Made by a program: the position numbers and the translations under genes. Under the pieces are notes generated by a model, which was not told the DNA's origin, did no database searches, and worked only from the letters and a program-made list of their open reading frames with translations. From Bacteroidales bacterium (GTDB lineage: Bacteria > Bacteroidota > Bacteroidia > Bacteroidales > Prolixibacteraceae), in NCBI GenBank assembly GCA_031285325.1, contig JAITWJ010000148.1, forward strand, positions 1 through 40,940: DNA of 40,940 nt. Direction: 5' to 3'. Positions 7,677-40,940 of this stretch are shown in pieces (the stretch's first letter is position 1; each line of letters begins with the position of its first letter).

Positions 7677-8327
7677 TTATACAATCACGCCATCTTTTAT
7701 GTTTATTATATTATCGGAACGTTTGGCGAAATTATCGTCGTGCGTAACAATAACGAATGTTTGCCCGAAATCATCGCGCAGTTTGAACAGTAAATCGTGC
7801 AGTTCGTCGCGACTGGCCGAATCGAGATTTCCCGATGGTTCGTCGGCTAATACAACCGAAGGGCTGTTAATAAGAGCGCGTGCAACGGCAATCCTCTGTT
7901 TTTCGCCACCCGAAAGTTGAGATGGTTTATGTTCCATTCTTTTTAAAAGGCCTAAGTAACCAATTAGGTCTTTTGCTTTTTTTTCGGCTTTTGATTTTGA
8001 TGTTTTAGCGATAAACGCCGGAATACAAACATTTTCAAGCGCTGTAAATTCAGGCAATAGATGATGGAACTGAAAAACAAACCCTATTTCTTTATTTCTG
8101 AAAACAGATAATTCATTATCGTTAAACGATGAAATTTTTTTTTCGTTGTAATAAATTTCTCCGCTGCTCGGATTGCTCAATGTACCTAAAATTTGCAAAA
8201 GCGTTGTTTTACCGGCTCCACTGACACCTACAATAGAATACAACTTACCATCAGGTATTTCAAGATTAATTCCCTTCAAAACTTGAAGGTTTCCGAACGA
8301 TTTTTTTATTTCAACAGCTTTAATCAA
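7677..8327 (-). CDS. lolD: ABC transporter ATP-binding protein, LolD type
   Basis: A 216-residue ATPase. Walker A is [10 protein letters not shown], the signature is [15 protein letters not shown], Walker B is [12 protein letters not shown], and the H-loop is VIVTHDD. The EPSGNLD variant and size fit the LolD/MacB/FtsE group, which powers lipoprotein release from the inner membrane or related efflux. Its permease (LolC/E) is not in the neighbourhood, as is usual for Bacteroidota. It lies between the TatA-like gene upstream and the TIGR02757 gene downstream, all on the minus strand. Confidence 0.88.
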
Positions 8328-35249: not shown

Positions 35250-36971
35250 TTATTCCTCTAATTGCCCTTCTTTTATAATATTCTTAACTGCCTGCTCTCC
35301 CAAGCGTTCTTTTAACTGTGAAAGGTAAAGGCTTCTGGGAGTAACATGTTTATCCATAGATTCAAGATGACCGTTTGGTTTGGTACGATCCTGTAAAACA
35401 GTATTAAAAATTACAGAATTTATTCCTATATGGCCAAATGAATAATTTTGTGCTGTAGGTGGTTTTTGCATCATATAATCACCTTCGCAATTCCAAAAAA
35501 CATTGTTGGCACCAGCCCATCCAATGCCTTGAGTCCAAAGTCTTGCAGAAAGAGGTGCCTTTACATTATCGTAAAGTAACCCTGTTAACCATTGAGAATG
35601 TGGCTCGCTTGTTGAAAATGGATTTATTGCTTCGCAGTCAAGAAATACATTTCCGCTGGATCCAGTACCATTAACAAATGAGTGTCTCCCTTTTTGAGAA
35701 AAGCACCTCTGGACGAACGAAAGTTGACCGCTAAGCTGAAAAGTAAAACGGCGCGCGCCTGCTCTGATTGAAACGGGTTCCCACGATTCACAATCTTGTA
35801 TTGTTATCCATTTTGTTCCATTAGCTGCATGTATAACACTACTGCCAAAATGAAGACCGCTGATGTTCCGTGCCCATCCGTTTTTTACATTTGTAATACT
35901 GATAAACGTAAAATAATGGTTTTCATCGGCATAATATTCTTCACCTTCATAATGTAGTATGTCGGGAGCATCCCAATTCCCACGGTCCATATTCCCATAC
36001 GAGGTTATTCTTACAGAAGGGTCGTATTCTGAAATTCCTCTCAAATTCTCGATACCTACTTGTTCTAACCGTCCGGCATCGTCATATTTATAAACTTCGC
36101 CGCCTCCCCAACGAGTTTCGATGGCACAAAAAATAGGTGCATCAACTGTTATGGTGTTTCCGTTTATACCTGTAATTACTCTATCGTAATCGGTATTGAA
36201 AGGCCTCAATGCTCTTCCTGTACTTTCGCTGTCAGGGTAGAGTTCTTTAAAGAAAGCATCGTTTCCTATTCTTCGTACAAGTATTTTGTCGCCGGTTTTG
36301 AATCCGCTGGCTGATGTTACTGTAAAACTGAAAGCGCCTACAGGTACATAATTGTCGGTAATTAGTTGCTTTGTATTTTCCTGTATAGTAACACCCGATT
36401 CACCACTTATATTTACAAGCGCTGACCTTCTTTGAGAAGTAGTTTGCCTTTCCATTGGTAATCCTTTGCTTTCGTTAGATAAATCTTCAAGTTTACCAAT
36501 AAGAATTGTTCCTGTTTCGCCCATTCCTTCACCGCGAAGAACAACCCCCGAAGTTCTAATATATATAGGCTTTGCAAGTTCATAAATCCCCATTTTAAGC
36601 AATACTGCCCCCTTGAATCCTGATGCATCGGCAGGCAATGAAGAAACCTTATCGATAGCTGCCTGTATATTTGCCGAATTGTCGCCACGTACAGGCCACA
36701 CAATTTCTTTATTTGCCACATACGGGATAGGTACGCCGCCGCCTTTGTAACCTGCGTTTGAAAAATCAGGAATTATATTCCCTAAATTATCGGCAACATA
36801 AACCATTTTACCGTCAGTGCCGGGGTAAACTAACGATGTTGTAGGAGGAATATCCTGAGCATGGAAATCATTTGAGAGTGGTGAGTTCCCATTAGATGCA
36901 CCTTGGCTGCTTTTGTAAGGTGCGTTTACGAAGAACATTAACACAATAATTGCGTAAAATAATTTTTTCAT
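35250..36971 (-). CDS. Secreted beta-helix protein, pectate-lyase-superfamily type (paralogue A)
   Basis: A 573-residue protein with signal peptide MKKLFYAIIVLMFFVNAPYKS. The N-terminal part (DNSANIQAAIDKVSSLPADASG, then AVLLKMGIYELAKPIYIRTSGVVLRGEG) is the opening of a pectate-lyase-3-like right-handed beta helix. Turns with repeated aromatic and asparagine ladders follow (FTFISITNVKNGWARNISGLHFG, ITIQDCESWEPVS, VFLDCEAINPFSTSEPHSQWL). I think this belongs to DUF4955-related proteins; no lyase catalytic residues can be named with confidence. It is closely similar to the next gene along most of its length, a recent tandem duplication. Probably periplasmic or surface-exposed. Confidence 0.82.
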   Translation of the reverse strand: MKKLFYAIIVLMFFVNAPYKSSQGASNGNSPLSNDFHAQDIPPTTSLVYPGTDGKMVYVADNLGNIIPDFSNAGYKGGGVPIPYVANKEIVWPVRGDNSANIQAAIDKVSSLPADASGFKGAVLLKMGIYELAKPIYIRTSGVVLRGEGMGETGTILIGKLEDLSNESKGLPMERQTTSQRRSALVNISGESGVTIQENTKQLITDNYVPVGAFSFTVTSASGFKTGDKILVRRIGNDAFFKELYPDSESTGRALRPFNTDYDRVITGINGNTITVDAPIFCAIETRWGGGEVYKYDDAGRLEQVGIENLRGISEYDPSVRITSYGNMDRGNWDAPDILHYEGEEYYADENHYFTFISITNVKNGWARNISGLHFGSSVIHAANGTKWITIQDCESWEPVSIRAGARRFTFQLSGQLSFVQRCFSQKGRHSFVNGTGSSGNVFLDCEAINPFSTSEPHSQWLTGLLYDNVKAPLSARLWTQGIGWAGANNVFWNCEGDYMMQKPPTAQNYSFGHIGINSVIFNTVLQDRTKPNGHLESMDKHVTPRSLYLSQLKERLGEQAVKNIIKEGQLEE

Positions 36972-37085: not shown

Positions 37086-38747
37086 TTATTCGACTGTTTG
37101 CCCTTTTTTAATCACATTTCTAACAGCCTGTTCTCCTAAACGTTCTTTGAGTTGCGTAAGATATAAACTGCGTGGTGCAACATGTTTGTCTAACGACTCA
37201 ATATGTCCGTTTGGTTTTGATGTGTCTTGCAGGGCCTTGTTGAAAATTACAGCGTTTATTCCGATATGTCCAAATGAATAGTTTTGCGCTGTTGGTGGTT
37301 TCTGAATAAAGAAATCGCCTTCGCAGTTCCAGAAAACTATATTAGCACCAGCCCAACCAATAATAAAATCCCAAAAACGGGCTGTAAGTGGCGCTTTTAT
37401 GTTATCATAAAGTACTCCGTTAACCCATCTGTTGTGAGGTTCGCTGGTTGAGTAAGGATTAACAGCTTTACTGTCGAGAAATACATTACCGCTCGCTTCC
37501 GGACCTTGTAAAACAAATGAGTGCCTTCCTTTTTGTGAGAAACATCTTTGTACAAGACAGAACTGTCCGTTCATTTGATATGTAAACCGTCGTCCTCCAA
37601 CGCGTGGTGCAACAGGTTCCCACGATTCACAGTCCTGTACGGTAACCCATTTTGTTCCTGCACTACTCATAATAACACTGTTTGCGAAATGCAGAGCGCT
37701 CATATTGCGTACCCAAACGTTTTTTGCATTGGTTATATTAATAAAATTAGAATAATGGTTTTCATCCGAAAAATATTCTTCGGCTTCATAACCTTCACGG
37801 TCCATGTTGCCGTAATTTTTTGTTCTGACTGTTGGATTATATTCCGAAATGCCCCGCAGGTTTTCAATACCTACCTGCTCTATTCTTTCGTCGGTATATT
37901 TAGTTATATCGCCACCGCCCCAGCGAGTTTCGATGGCACAAAAAATAGGCGCATCAACGGTAACAGTATTTCCGTTCACAGCAGTAACAATTCTGTCGTA
38001 TGTTATATCAAATGCTCTCCACTGATTTCTTCCTACAGCAGCGCTGTCTTGTCCTATTTCTGTTATCCATTTTTCGTTGCCAATACGTTTAATCAATACT
38101 TTGTCGCCGGGTTTAAACCCGCTTGCAGTTCTTACGTTGAAACTGTGGGCGCCAACCGGTACATAATTGTCGGTAATAGCCTGTCTTGTTTCTTCCATAA
38201 GTTTAATGCCAGAATCTCCGCTTATATTAACAAGGCCTCCTCTTGTTCTTTCTGTTGGAATTTTACCAATCAGGATAGTTCCAATATCATTCATCCCTTC
38301 GCCGCGAAGTACTACTCCTGAAGCTTTTATTGTTAGTGGTTTGTTAAGAATATAAGTCCCCATTTTTAAAAGTACGGTACCTCTAAACCCTGAAGCATCT
38401 AAAGGTAATGCCGATACACGGTCGATGGCCGACTGTATATTGTCTGAATTATCGCCCGGAACCGGCCAAACAGTTTCTTTTATGGCTACATTTGGAATGG
38501 GTACACCACCACCTTTGTATCCTGCGTTTGAAAAATCGGGAATTGTATTCCCTAAACTGTCGGCAACATAAACCAGTTTGCCGTCGGTGCCTGGATAAAC
38601 CAGCGAAGCAGTTGGAGGAATATCCTCAGCTTTAAATTCAAAATCATTATTCTTGCCGTTTTTTGTTACAGTTCCTGCATTAACCGAAACATGGCTTAAC
38701 CCGAATACCAATACTATTGCAGTAGTAAAAATAAGTGAATTTTTCAT
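37086..38747 (-). CDS. Secreted beta-helix protein, pectate-lyase-superfamily type (paralogue B)
   Basis: A 553-residue protein with signal peptide MKNSLIFTTAIVLVFGLSHVSVNA. It keeps the same blocks as paralogue A: SLVYPGTDGKLVYVADSLGN, VVLRGEGMNDIGTILIGK, FCAIETRWGGGD, VEQVGIENLRGISEYNP-like segments, CFSQKGRHSFV and the C-terminal APRSLYLTQLKERLGEQAV. It lacks about 20 residues found in A in the SNESKGLPMERQTTSQRR region and another short stretch near DAPDILHYE. It lies 114 bases upstream of A on the same strand, so both may be in one transcript. Substrate unknown. Confidence 0.82.
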   Translation of the reverse strand: MKNSLIFTTAIVLVFGLSHVSVNAGTVTKNGKNNDFEFKAEDIPPTASLVYPGTDGKLVYVADSLGNTIPDFSNAGYKGGGVPIPNVAIKETVWPVPGDNSDNIQSAIDRVSALPLDASGFRGTVLLKMGTYILNKPLTIKASGVVLRGEGMNDIGTILIGKIPTERTRGGLVNISGDSGIKLMEETRQAITDNYVPVGAHSFNVRTASGFKPGDKVLIKRIGNEKWITEIGQDSAAVGRNQWRAFDITYDRIVTAVNGNTVTVDAPIFCAIETRWGGGDITKYTDERIEQVGIENLRGISEYNPTVRTKNYGNMDREGYEAEEYFSDENHYSNFINITNAKNVWVRNMSALHFANSVIMSSAGTKWVTVQDCESWEPVAPRVGGRRFTYQMNGQFCLVQRCFSQKGRHSFVLQGPEASGNVFLDSKAVNPYSTSEPHNRWVNGVLYDNIKAPLTARFWDFIIGWAGANIVFWNCEGDFFIQKPPTAQNYSFGHIGINAVIFNKALQDTSKPNGHIESLDKHVAPRSLYLTQLKERLGEQAVRNVIKKGQTVE

Positions 38748-39272: not shown

Positions 39273-40391
39273 ATGAGAAATTTTTATTTATTGGTATTTA
39301 TTCTATTTGTATTTGGGTGCAAATCGAGTAACAACGAGGAAATTGATACAATCAGTATAGAAAACAATATATCGGACGCTATAAGCATCGATGATATTTT
39401 TAAGGAATATAAATTTATCAGTTTGGAAGCTACCACTGACTCTTCACTGGTAGGCGTTCCAAGAAAAATTGCTCTGAAAAATGATGTTATTTTCGTTTCT
39501 GACGGGAGAAGACTGTTTCAATTTAACACTGACGGCAGTCATATAAGAACTTTAAACAAAGTTGGAGGAGGCCCTCAGGAATATCTGGGCATTTGGGATT
39601 TCATCGTTTCCGATAAAGAGATACTTATATGGGATCAGAACAGCAGGAAACTGATCAGATATACGCTGGATAATGAATATATAAACAGCTATGTGATAGA
39701 CAACTTTGCTGCCACAATCCATCTTGTTGACAGAGATAAGGTTTTATTCTCTTCGTCGTATCAAAGTAATGATGAGTATAAATTTACGGTTCGCGATTTG
39801 GAAACAATGAACATTGTTGCAAGTTTTCATCCTGTAAACAAAAATCAAATAACATACAGGCATTTTGCGGAACAGGATAATTATTATGTGTATAAAAACA
39901 CTCTTTTGTTTCATGAACCCATGAATAATTATATTTACGAAATAGGCAACAATAAATTTGAGCCGGTACGTTACCTGGACATATACGGTAAAAATCCGCC
40001 CGAAGAATTTTTGGAAGAAAAACATGAAGATATAATGGATATTATTGTAAAGGCGCAAACAAACGGATATTGCTATGGTGCTCCGATGTATGCCGAAAGC
40101 AACGATCAGATTGTTTTTTCTTTTCGGGCAGAAGACAGAACCATGCTGTGCAGCTATTCAAAAGAAACAGATAAATCAATACAGTCTGAAAAAATAGTTT
40201 TGTACCAGGATGTTCCTCCAATAGAATTTATGCGGGTAAAGGTAAACACCGATTCCGATGAAGCCTTTCTCTTTGCCGTGGGTAGTGAAACGTTTTATAA
40301 GGATGTTGACAATAACATTCCTTATGTAGAGGACTTGTCATATCTCTCAAATAACGGTAATCCTGTAATTTGTTTGGCTAAACTAAAATAA
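39273..40391 (+). CDS. 6-bladed beta-propeller lipoprotein, NVEALA-associated
   Basis: A 372-residue lipoprotein (MRNFYLLVFILFVFGC, lipidated Cys16). The mature part has repeated blade motifs: ALKNDVIFVSDGRRLFQFNT, IRTLNKVGGGPQEYLGIWDF, EILIWDQNSRKLIRYTLD and YVYKNTLLFHEPMNNYIYEI. The phrases KVGGGPQEYL and FKEYKFISLEATTDSSLVG are typical of the Bacteroidota 6-bladed propeller family (PF17170-like) encoded beside NVEALA peptides. Likely attached to a membrane facing the periplasm or outside. A sensor, peptide-binding or maturation role is unproven. An NVEALA gene follows and another lipoprotein starts after it. Confidence 0.85.
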   Translation: MRNFYLLVFILFVFGCKSSNNEEIDTISIENNISDAISIDDIFKEYKFISLEATTDSSLVGVPRKIALKNDVIFVSDGRRLFQFNTDGSHIRTLNKVGGGPQEYLGIWDFIVSDKEILIWDQNSRKLIRYTLDNEYINSYVIDNFAATIHLVDRDKVLFSSSYQSNDEYKFTVRDLETMNIVASFHPVNKNQITYRHFAEQDNYYVYKNTLLFHEPMNNYIYEIGNNKFEPVRYLDIYGKNPPEEFLEEKHEDIMDIIVKAQTNGYCYGAPMYAESNDQIVFSFRAEDRTMLCSYSKETDKSIQSEKIVLYQDVPPIEFMRVKVNTDSDEAFLFAVGSETFYKDVDNNIPYVEDLSYLSNNGNPVICLAKLK

Positions 40392-40472
40392 ATGACCAAA
40401 AACATTAAAGAAATCAGGCAAACAAAAAAAAGATTAATTTTTAAAACTTTAAGGTTTTGGTTGTTGAAATGA
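40392..40472 (+). CDS. Possible 26-residue basic peptide
   Basis: An ATG touches the propeller stop (TAAATG) and opens 26 codons rich in lysine and arginine (MTKNIKEIRQTKKRLIFK, then a short hydrophobic end). It could be translated by coupling, or be chance. I do not recognise it. The rest of the gap to 40524 has a GGTTGT/ACAACC stem near 40458-40485. Confidence 0.2.
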   Translation: MTKNIKEIRQTKKRLIFKTLRFWLLK

Positions 40473-40524
40473 TAAATACAACCACTATAGTTATTTTTTT
40501 TATTAATCCATAAATCTAAAATTT

Positions 40525-40755
40525 ATGAAGAAAAAAATTTTATGCGGCGTTGCCGCGGTAGCTATTTCAGCTACAATTGCATTCAATATGAGTTTGAATG
40601 CTAACAGTAACAACTTGTCGGATCTTTCTTTAGCTAATGTGGAGGCGTTGGCCAGTGATGAATTATTGGACATAAAGATGTGGTCAGTATATGCGGAATC
40701 ATCTGTGCATTGGAGATGTGATCCAAATGGTAATTCAGCCTGTCCTGCTCCTTAG
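40525..40755 (+). CDS. NVEALA family peptide precursor
   Basis: A 76-residue protein with an N-terminal signal-like segment (KKKILCGVAAVAISATIAFNM) and the diagnostic LSLANVEALASDE block at residues 36-46. The family is named for NVEALA, thought to mark the end of a leader. The remaining ~33 residues include a hydrophobic/aromatic stretch (LLDIKMWSVYAESS) and a two-cysteine end (WRCDPNGNSACPAP), which could form a disulfide loop after export. No processing enzyme is in the window. A strong terminator follows immediately, so the peptide is probably made in excess of the next lipoprotein. Function unknown in the literature I know. Confidence 0.9.
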   Translation: MKKKILCGVAAVAISATIAFNMSLNANSNNLSDLSLANVEALASDELLDIKMWSVYAESSVHWRCDPNGNSACPAP

Positions 40756-40765
40756 GTACAGTAAT

Positions 40766-40799
40766 AAAAAACAGGAGAGAAAGATCTCTCCTGTTTTTT
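40766..40799 (+). terminator. Strong intrinsic terminator after the NVEALA gene
   Basis: AAAAAACAGGAGAG pairs with CTCTCCTGTTTTTT (14 bp) around a 6-base loop, ending in six T. It stands 11 bases after the stop and 29 bases before the next gene. Confidence 0.92.
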
Positions 40800-40828
40800 A
40801 AAGTTTTAAATAATATAACTTACACAAA

Positions 40829-40940
40829 ATGTATAGAATATTAACTGTTATTTTTGCTGTTTTGATATTTGCAGGGTGCCGTTCAGAAACAGATACAAGT
40901 GATAAAATTCCCGTTAATTTTGACGACAACGGACATTTTG
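40829..40940 (+). CDS. Lipoprotein, N-terminal part (3' end outside window)
   Basis: An ATG starts MYRILTVIFAVLIFAGC with a lipid-attachment cysteine at residue 17, followed by RSETDTSDKIPVNFDDNG. The length seen (37 codons) is too short to classify. Its position after an NVEALA gene and its similar signal peptide suggest a second beta-propeller lipoprotein. With a strong terminator just upstream, it would need read-through or its own promoter. Confidence 0.7.
   Translation, partial: MYRILTVIFAVLIFAGCRSETDTSDKIPVNFDDNGHF

Follow-up and report, generated by a model that had tools for sequence, protein, structure and literature searches.

The window, by which we mean the whole analysed stretch of 40,940 nucleotides of Bacteroidales DNA, is an entire contig (C29) of the source genome, and at its right end a short NVEALA peptide gene lies between two propeller lipoprotein genes (Table 1). 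As the initial annotation had described it, the precursor combines a signal-like N-terminus, the NVEALA boundary and a short Cys-bearing end, and its Pfam match to PF14055 (43.8 bits, cut-off 27, E 2.1e-11) places it in that family. The complete propeller upstream of it belongs to PF17170 by the same kind of comparison (116.6 bits, cut-off 22.9, E 2e-33). Against NCBIfam, neither the peptide nor this propeller gave a match at E up to 1, and the peptide was accordingly not matched as a TIGR04149 double-glycine (GG) leader precursor.

Table 1. Features at the right end of the window
Feature	Position	Strand	Details
Propeller lipoprotein (6-bladed, PF17170/DUF5128), complete	39273..40391	+	372 aa; lipobox-like Cys at residue 16
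NVEALA peptide precursor	40525..40755	+	76 aa; basic N-terminus, then hydrophobic stretch
Leader	40525..40653	+	residues 1-43: basic start, hydrophobic stretch, spacer, NVEALA
NVEALA motif	40636..40653	+	residues 38-43; putative type I signal-peptidase site, cut after A-L-A
Hypervariable core	40654..40752	+	33 aa, 2 Cys; predicted mature peptide
Terminator-like hairpin with T run	40766..40799	+	34 bases, between peptide and downstream propeller
Downstream propeller lipoprotein, truncated	40829..40940	+	first 37 codons, rest beyond contig end; candidate cognate partner

The frame that follows the peptide is taken to be a propeller because its DNA is almost identical, over the 37 codons present, to the start of a propeller gene on contig C137, where that gene comes after a sister NVEALA peptide (DNA alignment with contigs C137 and C28). 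The placement of the peptide between a six-bladed propeller lipoprotein and another lipoprotein, as first annotated, therefore holds. The repeat at this position accounts for the assembly break, as contigs C29 and C28 end at the same base. Contig C137 carries the row propeller, peptide, propeller, thioredoxin-like, peptide, propeller, and the source genome as a whole contains seven NVEALA matches and eight PF17170 matches, seven of these above the cut-off, so that the arrangement in the window is not a chance one. The peptide of Table 1 is the only NVEALA match on its contig, and none lies directly upstream of the complete propeller, which is probably unpaired or belongs to the previous unit.

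Leaders, cores and distribution of the precursors

The family was compared in a pooled set of 112 stretches (the window and L016-L126) with 5898 open reading frames, 99 of the stretches containing a precursor. A motif pattern yielded 189 precursors, or 177 from 63 genomes after de-duplication by sequence and next gene; since the pattern demanded the letters E-A-L, their invariance is by construction. At the level of sequence, the comparison establishes a precursor made of a shared leader ending in NVEALA and a hypervariable, Cys-containing core. Mean leader similarity is 0.60 within a genome vs 0.35 between genomes, and the corresponding values for cores are 0.110 and 0.112; in P. massiliensis the leaders share 97% of their DNA sequence in 15 pairs of equal length, with cores that differ. 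Cysteine makes up 0.084 of residues in cores vs 0.007 in leaders, and its number per core is even in 142/173, odd in 30 and zero in one. The mean core charge is -2.3, with +2 or more in just 4/173, and a reading of the cores as cationic membrane-active peptides is disfavoured by this mostly acidic character.

An AxA sequence before the cut marks a type I signal-peptidase site. Gln is the residue directly after NVEALA in 34/173 cores, compared with 25/1730 at the ten positions that follow; in the window peptide, Ser occupies this place. PMC10653852 gives a Q-rule for Bacteroidetes, with Gln after the type I signal-peptidase cut in about 71% of substrates, and the Gln share found here is far above background and under that value, with the ALA stemming in part from the search pattern.

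The NVEALA family matched 6/395 genomes of a class-level sample at E up to 1e-3, five of them above the Pfam cut-off; in the sixth (G165), the stretch inspected held no precursor. In an order-level sample the figures were 12/247 and nine. Among the matches below the cut-off, that in G444 lies inside a 568-codon frame, with no precursor in its stretch, and is probably due to chance; G615 has a precursor-like fragment without a leader and G495 a complete-looking precursor. With eight candidates scored per genome, PF17170 was found in 54/247 genomes of the order sample, including 11 of the 12 with NVEALA, where 2.6 would be expected (Fisher 2e-7), and all nine of those above the cut-off (Fisher 7e-7). 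The search across genomes that had been proposed for the two families thus returned clear co-occurrence. Presence is patchy, as G562, a genome of the same genus as the source and rated 100% complete, gave no NVEALA match; in L184 and L185, NVEALA-like precursors missed by Pfam were spotted by eye.

A scan of named genomes with the pattern [AST]L[AD]NVEALA, for which the leaders are thereby preselected, returned 106 relatives. The best 80 of these fall in 75 loci, mostly from Bacteroidales and also from Sphingobacterium and Parapedobacter; common gut genera, among them Phocaeicola, Parabacteroides and Bacteroides, have such loci. The largest number of distinct precursors per genome in the stretches inspected was ten, in P. 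massiliensis. There was no sign of a phage origin, as none of 27 pattern matches in viral contigs proved to be a relative by tblastn.

Some of these genes are carried on plasmids, five records of which were matched by one P. massiliensis precursor used as query. According to the NCBI annotation, a P. vulgatus plasmid has five NVEALA genes, behind each of which comes a 6-bladed propeller or a BF3164 gene; a single strand of it bears NVEALA, propeller, redoxin, lepB, O-antigen ligase, a hypothetical gene and transglutaminase. Two NVEALA proteins of a P. dorei plasmid are shared with it by accession, and in the case of a B. fragilis plasmid, NVEALA is followed by a gene with no annotation beyond hypothetical.

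Genes that accompany the peptides

Neighbouring families were followed through the 5898 frames with profiles built by iteration from one seed each; as some stretches overlap (L026/L124, L033/L112, L034/L104), the per-locus counts include overlaps. The gene after the peptide is on the same strand in 171/171 cases, the remaining 6 of the 177 lying at the end of a stretch. It encodes a propeller after 140 peptides, another peptide after 11, a thioredoxin-like protein after eight, a transglutaminase-like protein and an S26 signal peptidase after one each, and some other protein after ten, so that the recurrent association stated in the initial annotation is supported. On the upstream side the neighbour is most often a thioredoxin-like (44) or propeller gene (43), followed by other same-strand genes (21), divergent regulators (17), the end of the stretch (13), peptides (11), divergent kinases (seven), other divergent genes (six), S26 (six), transglutaminase-like (five) and O-antigen-ligase-like (waaL) genes (two) and same-strand regulators (two). 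An NVEALA peptide immediately upstream is lacking for 116 of the 265 propellers, and nine more sit at a locus edge. The 112 stretches scanned contained no natural peptide-propeller fusion.

By locus, propellers were matched in 106 of the 112, thioredoxin-like proteins in 63, transglutaminase-like proteins in 41, S26 in 39, regulators in 39, kinases in 36 and waaL-like proteins in 31, the regulator and kinase profiles picking up ordinary regulators too. Within 6 kb, the genes on the peptide strand are 253/253 for propellers, 69/69 for thioredoxin-like proteins, 36/36 for S26, 23/23 for waaL and 40/41 for the transglutaminase-like protein, vs 5/23 for regulators and 0/12 for kinases. Density falls steeply with distance from the peptide for thioredoxin-like genes, propellers and regulators, and does not fall for S26, transglutaminase-like and waaL genes, which are placed further down the gene row. 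RND-type genes occur in 19 loci and 16/71 genomes, and within 6 kb the pump components are mostly on the peptide strand (RND 12/13, second RND 4/4, MFP 9/11, TolC 4/6), their density (RND, MFP and TolC) showing no fall with distance; in four loci (L018, L056, L071, L084) the peptide is nonetheless flanked by an RND-type gene on one side and a TolC or second RND gene on the other. The row in P. vulgatus ATCC 8482 (L123) comprises a divergent regulator and then peptide, thioredoxin-like, peptide, propeller, transglutaminase-like, S26, transglutaminase-like, waaL, MFP and RND. For B. thetaiotaomicron VPI-5482, tables in PMC10434189 give BT0662 as an O-antigen ligase, BT0664 as a propeller, BT0667 as lepB and BT0669 as an RND adaptor. 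A CxxC motif is present in 55/69 thioredoxin-like neighbours, and the Pfam match of the transglutaminase-like protein is weak (3.5e-4, below the cut-off). As judged from these comparisons, the loci recurrently carry an S26 clade, a CxxC thioredoxin-like lipoprotein and O-antigen-ligase-like and transglutaminase-like proteins, and sometimes RND, MFP and TolC genes.

The S26 genes of NVEALA loci are extra copies, distinct from the housekeeping ones and often in a tandem pair. In a tree of 54 sequences, 35 cluster-type enzymes (28 from the pooled loci) fall into one clade with support 1.0, a clade that also includes two sequences from G464, a genome whose peptides are accompanied by more divergent S26 genes. 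Ser and Lys, which we take to be the catalytic-type residues, are invariant in ten aligned sequences. Across the 247 genomes, the profile of the cluster enzyme scored at least 390 bits in six, all of them NVEALA-positive above the cut-off (Fisher 3e-10), which corresponds to 6/12 of the NVEALA genomes and 6/9 of those above the cut-off. It scored 238 bits in G446 and 175 in G553, both with variant precursors, and about 153 bits or less in the other genomes among the matches listed (E up to 1e-40). G508 and G495, both 99% complete, have two and one S26 genes, of the housekeeping type. The source genome has an S26 gene at C84:17969-18847, beside a propeller. The likely maturation enzyme is a signal-peptidase paralogue, not the propeller.

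A special position is held by peptides with two cysteines, of which there are 50, 34 with the cysteines 7-9 apart. A divergent transmembrane regulator or sensor kinase lies directly upstream of 22 of these 34, and a same-strand regulator of two, vs a divergent regulator upstream of 2/143 other cores. The N-terminal part of the one-component regulator aligns with that of the kinases (97.5%, E 8e-12) and its C-terminal part with that of response regulators (E 9e-17; control pair 0.87). Candidate inducers, with the same leader type and an adjacent kinase or regulator, are thus found in the family, and none was seen in the window. A hairpin followed by a T run was found in 36/103 peptide-propeller spacers of 40-400 nt, where mononucleotide shuffles give an expectation of 3.5, and in 4/75 upstream spacers (3.5 expected). 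The hairpin in the window would favour the production of more peptide than propeller.

As to where the propeller resides, PMC5080379 describes a strict Bacteroidetes surface-export signal, K-(D/E)2 or QA-(D/E)2 after the lipid Cys, and notes that such signals differ between species. This signal is present in 1/241 propellers with a lipobox, and two or more acidic residues at +2 to +6 in 18/241. Since the single SusD used as positive control carries the acids and lacks the strict signal as well, these counts speak neither for nor against the surface placement given in the initial annotation, and only suggest that the propeller faces the periplasm. In a profile search against structures, the propeller profile matched the solved chain PDB 4raa_A ('Putative exported protein') at 4e-51.

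Coupling between cores and downstream propellers

Coupling was measured as the correlation of between-genome similarities over 129 complete pairs from 55 genomes, with propellers shuffled within genomes as the null. Core similarity follows that of the downstream propeller with r 0.595, a value reached in 0/1000 shuffles (maximum 0.315), and removal of ten regulator-linked two-Cys cores leaves r at 0.564 (0/1000). The core is not coupled to its own leader (r 0.060; 836/1000 shuffles as high), to the upstream propeller (r -0.021, n=34; 787/1000) or to the upstream thioredoxin-like protein (r 0.158, n=36; 944/1000), and the value for leader and propeller is 0.107 (52/1000). We consider it established by these comparisons that a core is inherited with the propeller encoded just downstream.

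Where propellers flank the peptide on both sides (n=28, five genomes with more than one pair), r is 0.453 downstream and -0.054 upstream, the downstream coupling in this small set not being significant under within-genome shuffling (167/1000); with a thioredoxin-like gene upstream (n=27), the downstream r of 0.411 is borderline (53/1000). The rank correlation over all core-propeller pairs is flat (0.003), so that the signal comes from those cores, a minority, whose similarity can be recognised. For the 48 peptides with a core match of this kind, the matched propeller is among the top three in 46, where 1.1 would be expected, and r is still 0.41 (0/2000) after exclusion of genome pairs with a propeller in common (similarity of at least 0.5). 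The combined similarity patterns of leader, core and propeller suggest that a core and its propeller move together, as a unit, behind a host-typical leader.

These results bear on the identity of the partner in the window. Because cores track downstream and not upstream propellers, the likely partner of the window peptide is the truncated propeller downstream, and the complete one is probably not its partner. The earlier proposal of a cognate lipoprotein is therefore upheld as to the coupling itself, with the propeller that follows the peptide as the probable partner.

Possible functions and relation to known systems

We put at roughly one half the probability that the unit in the window belongs to a multi-copy system whose diversified peptides are exported, with a logic like that of a class II bacteriocin regulon. 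We favour effector peptides that would be directed at other bacteria, each propeller serving as a partner or immunity protein. Around the pairing and the gene set, which come directly from the comparisons, cleavage, export and biological role may be pictured as follows. The precursor would enter the inner membrane via Sec, the S26 enzyme would cut after NVEALA, and the thioredoxin-like protein would help disulfide formation. An RND/TolC pump may export the peptide; this is the weakest step, as RND genes were found in the minority of genomes given above and the pump genes do not cluster around the peptide. The propeller may face the periplasm and would bind its own core so as to hold it, hand it over or neutralise it, and the two-Cys peptide type would serve as an inducer read by the regulator. 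Earlier, a role in binding, maturation or signalling had been suggested for the lipoprotein; the gene set does fit maturation and signalling, with the qualification that maturation likely belongs to the S26 paralogue and not to the propeller. The full chain, in which Sec-delivered peptides are matured by a private S26 enzyme, exported by RND/TolC, matched by core-specific propellers, induced by a two-Cys peptide and reshuffled as plasmid-borne pairs that act between bacteria, is put forward tentatively.

The acidic cores argue against simple membrane killing and hence make signalling a strong rival, although we give it only about one chance in four. Each core would then be a private signal, and the propeller a receptor that relays it to transmembrane regulators, with no toxicity involved. 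Such relaying is supported by the position of peptides with two Cys 7-9 apart next to regulators, one-component or kinase, whose N-terminal parts are homologous. However, the regulator adjoins that one peptide type and hardly any other core, and many other pairs had no dedicated regulators in the stretches inspected. It is less probable, and on balance unlikely, that the system builds the envelope, with the transglutaminase-like and waaL-like proteins coupling peptide subunits to glycans or to each other and the propellers acting as chaperones. The nearly constant placement of these two gene types on the peptide strand within 6 kb speaks for it, as does the plasmid with a transglutaminase and an O-antigen ligase gene downstream of peptide and lepB, yet hypervariable cores with matched partners would be unusual for structural subunits, and the Pfam match of the transglutaminase-like protein is the weak one noted above.

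That the propeller is itself an enzyme which processes or modifies the peptide seems very improbable. It matches chains of peptidyl-glycine alpha-amidating monooxygenase weakly (8e-7), but the NHL propellers of TRIM and Brat outscore these by far in the same profile search, so that the match may reflect shared NHL repeats only; moreover, the private S26 enzyme accounts better for cleavage, and a core-specific partner would not be expected of a shared enzyme. Lower still we rate plain linkage, in which mobile cassettes would bring peptide and propeller side by side without any interaction between them. Neighbours can be inherited together without binding, so linkage alone could produce a coupling between them, and pairs are indeed found on plasmids; against this, the leader, which is part of the same gene as the core, is uncoupled from it, and so is the upstream propeller, which is also adjacent (n=34). 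If each peptide does have a private partner, the loci would amount to a large unexamined repertoire of bacterial peptides, and simple deletions could be used to test a function for two orphan families; they would also provide an example of a signal peptidase that was duplicated and given over to small peptides.

The side-by-side occurrence of these genes is already known, as NCBI names NVEALA, 6-bladed beta-propeller and BF3164 family lipoprotein next to each other on plasmids. The families concerned, PF14055, PF17170 and PF15869 (TolB-like, BF3164), carry no stated function, the window peptide and propeller being members of the first two. Among the papers listed in literature searches by family name and locus tag, as judged by title or opening of the abstract, there was no description of the core-propeller pairing, the private signal peptidase or the regulator link. 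Among systems of the same order, the TIGR04149 precursors of Bacteroidales likewise have Cys-containing cores behind a shared leader; they differ from the NVEALA system in the leader, which is of the GG type, in the peptidase and in the exporter, a C39 one. A propeller occurs in 4/19 TIGR04149 stretches (all 19 together covering 22/35 matches), and none was seen in the other 15/19, so that a general link between propellers and GG-leader peptides was rejected. L158, which covers one further TIGR04149 match, also has a propeller, and L157 contains a double-glycine-type peptide without a family match, a C39 exporter and propellers.

Class II bacteriocin regulons of Gram-positive bacteria combine a double-glycine leader, a C39 peptidase, a C39-ABC exporter and a small immunity protein. 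The NVEALA system is not a member of this class, since its leader ends in NVEALA and its recurrent peptidase is S26. It further differs from these regulons in the hydrophobic stretch of a leader that ends in ALA, in the RND/TolC genes that some genomes have in place of a C39-ABC exporter, in having a propeller lipoprotein where those have a small immunity protein, and in its acidic cores. Despite these differences, both would have an inducer and effectors with one leader, a private leader peptidase, a dedicated partner for each effector and a kinase or regulator nearby (see also PMC10059821 on such regulons).

Contig ends and tandem paralogues

The window and a second contig of the same genome, C28, end at the same final base (window position 40940) within the repeated propeller gene, and the assembly break is therefore attributed to this repeat. 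In the window, two tandem paralogues match a BT3328 hyaluronate-lyase model, both matches being weak and far under the cut-off of that model.

Tandem paralogues in the window and their hyaluronate-lyase model matches
Feature	Position	Strand	Length (aa)	BT3328 model match
Paralogue 1	35250-36971	-	573	partial, E 3e-13
Paralogue 2	37086-38747	-	553	partial, E 1e-12

Irregular genes and unusual settings

On C28, an NVEALA precursor (about 7780-7960 of the stretch read, L020) has its start codon ahead of an A run and in a frame that differs from that of the NVEALA part, a mismatch that reflects slippage, a pseudogene or an assembly error. A short, sub-cut-off match to the S26 signal-peptidase family, flanked by an O-antigen-ligase-like gene and a propeller (genome G000, C5:4200-4298), is perhaps a remnant.

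The P. vulgatus plasmid pPvulCL10_1 (L190/L191) alone carries five NVEALA pairs and the S26/ligase/transglutaminase set. It also has a SusD/TonB/fucosidase locus, genes for conjugation and several that resemble defence genes. NVEALA contigs also occur in MAGs named Rickettsiales, Gastranaerophilales, Firmicutes, Bacillales and Clostridiaceae (L064, L073, L089, L110 and L126), which more likely represent binning errors than true spread.

Propellers beside other small peptides

Small Cys-rich proteins with a hydrophobic N-terminal start and without NVEALA also adjoin propellers at L154 and L160, in genomes where the profile search gave no Pfam NVEALA match. At L157 (genome G499), propellers are adjoined by a Cys-rich, double-glycine-type peptide with a C39 exporter and HlyD; this peptide is the same kind of propeller neighbour, using a different export route.
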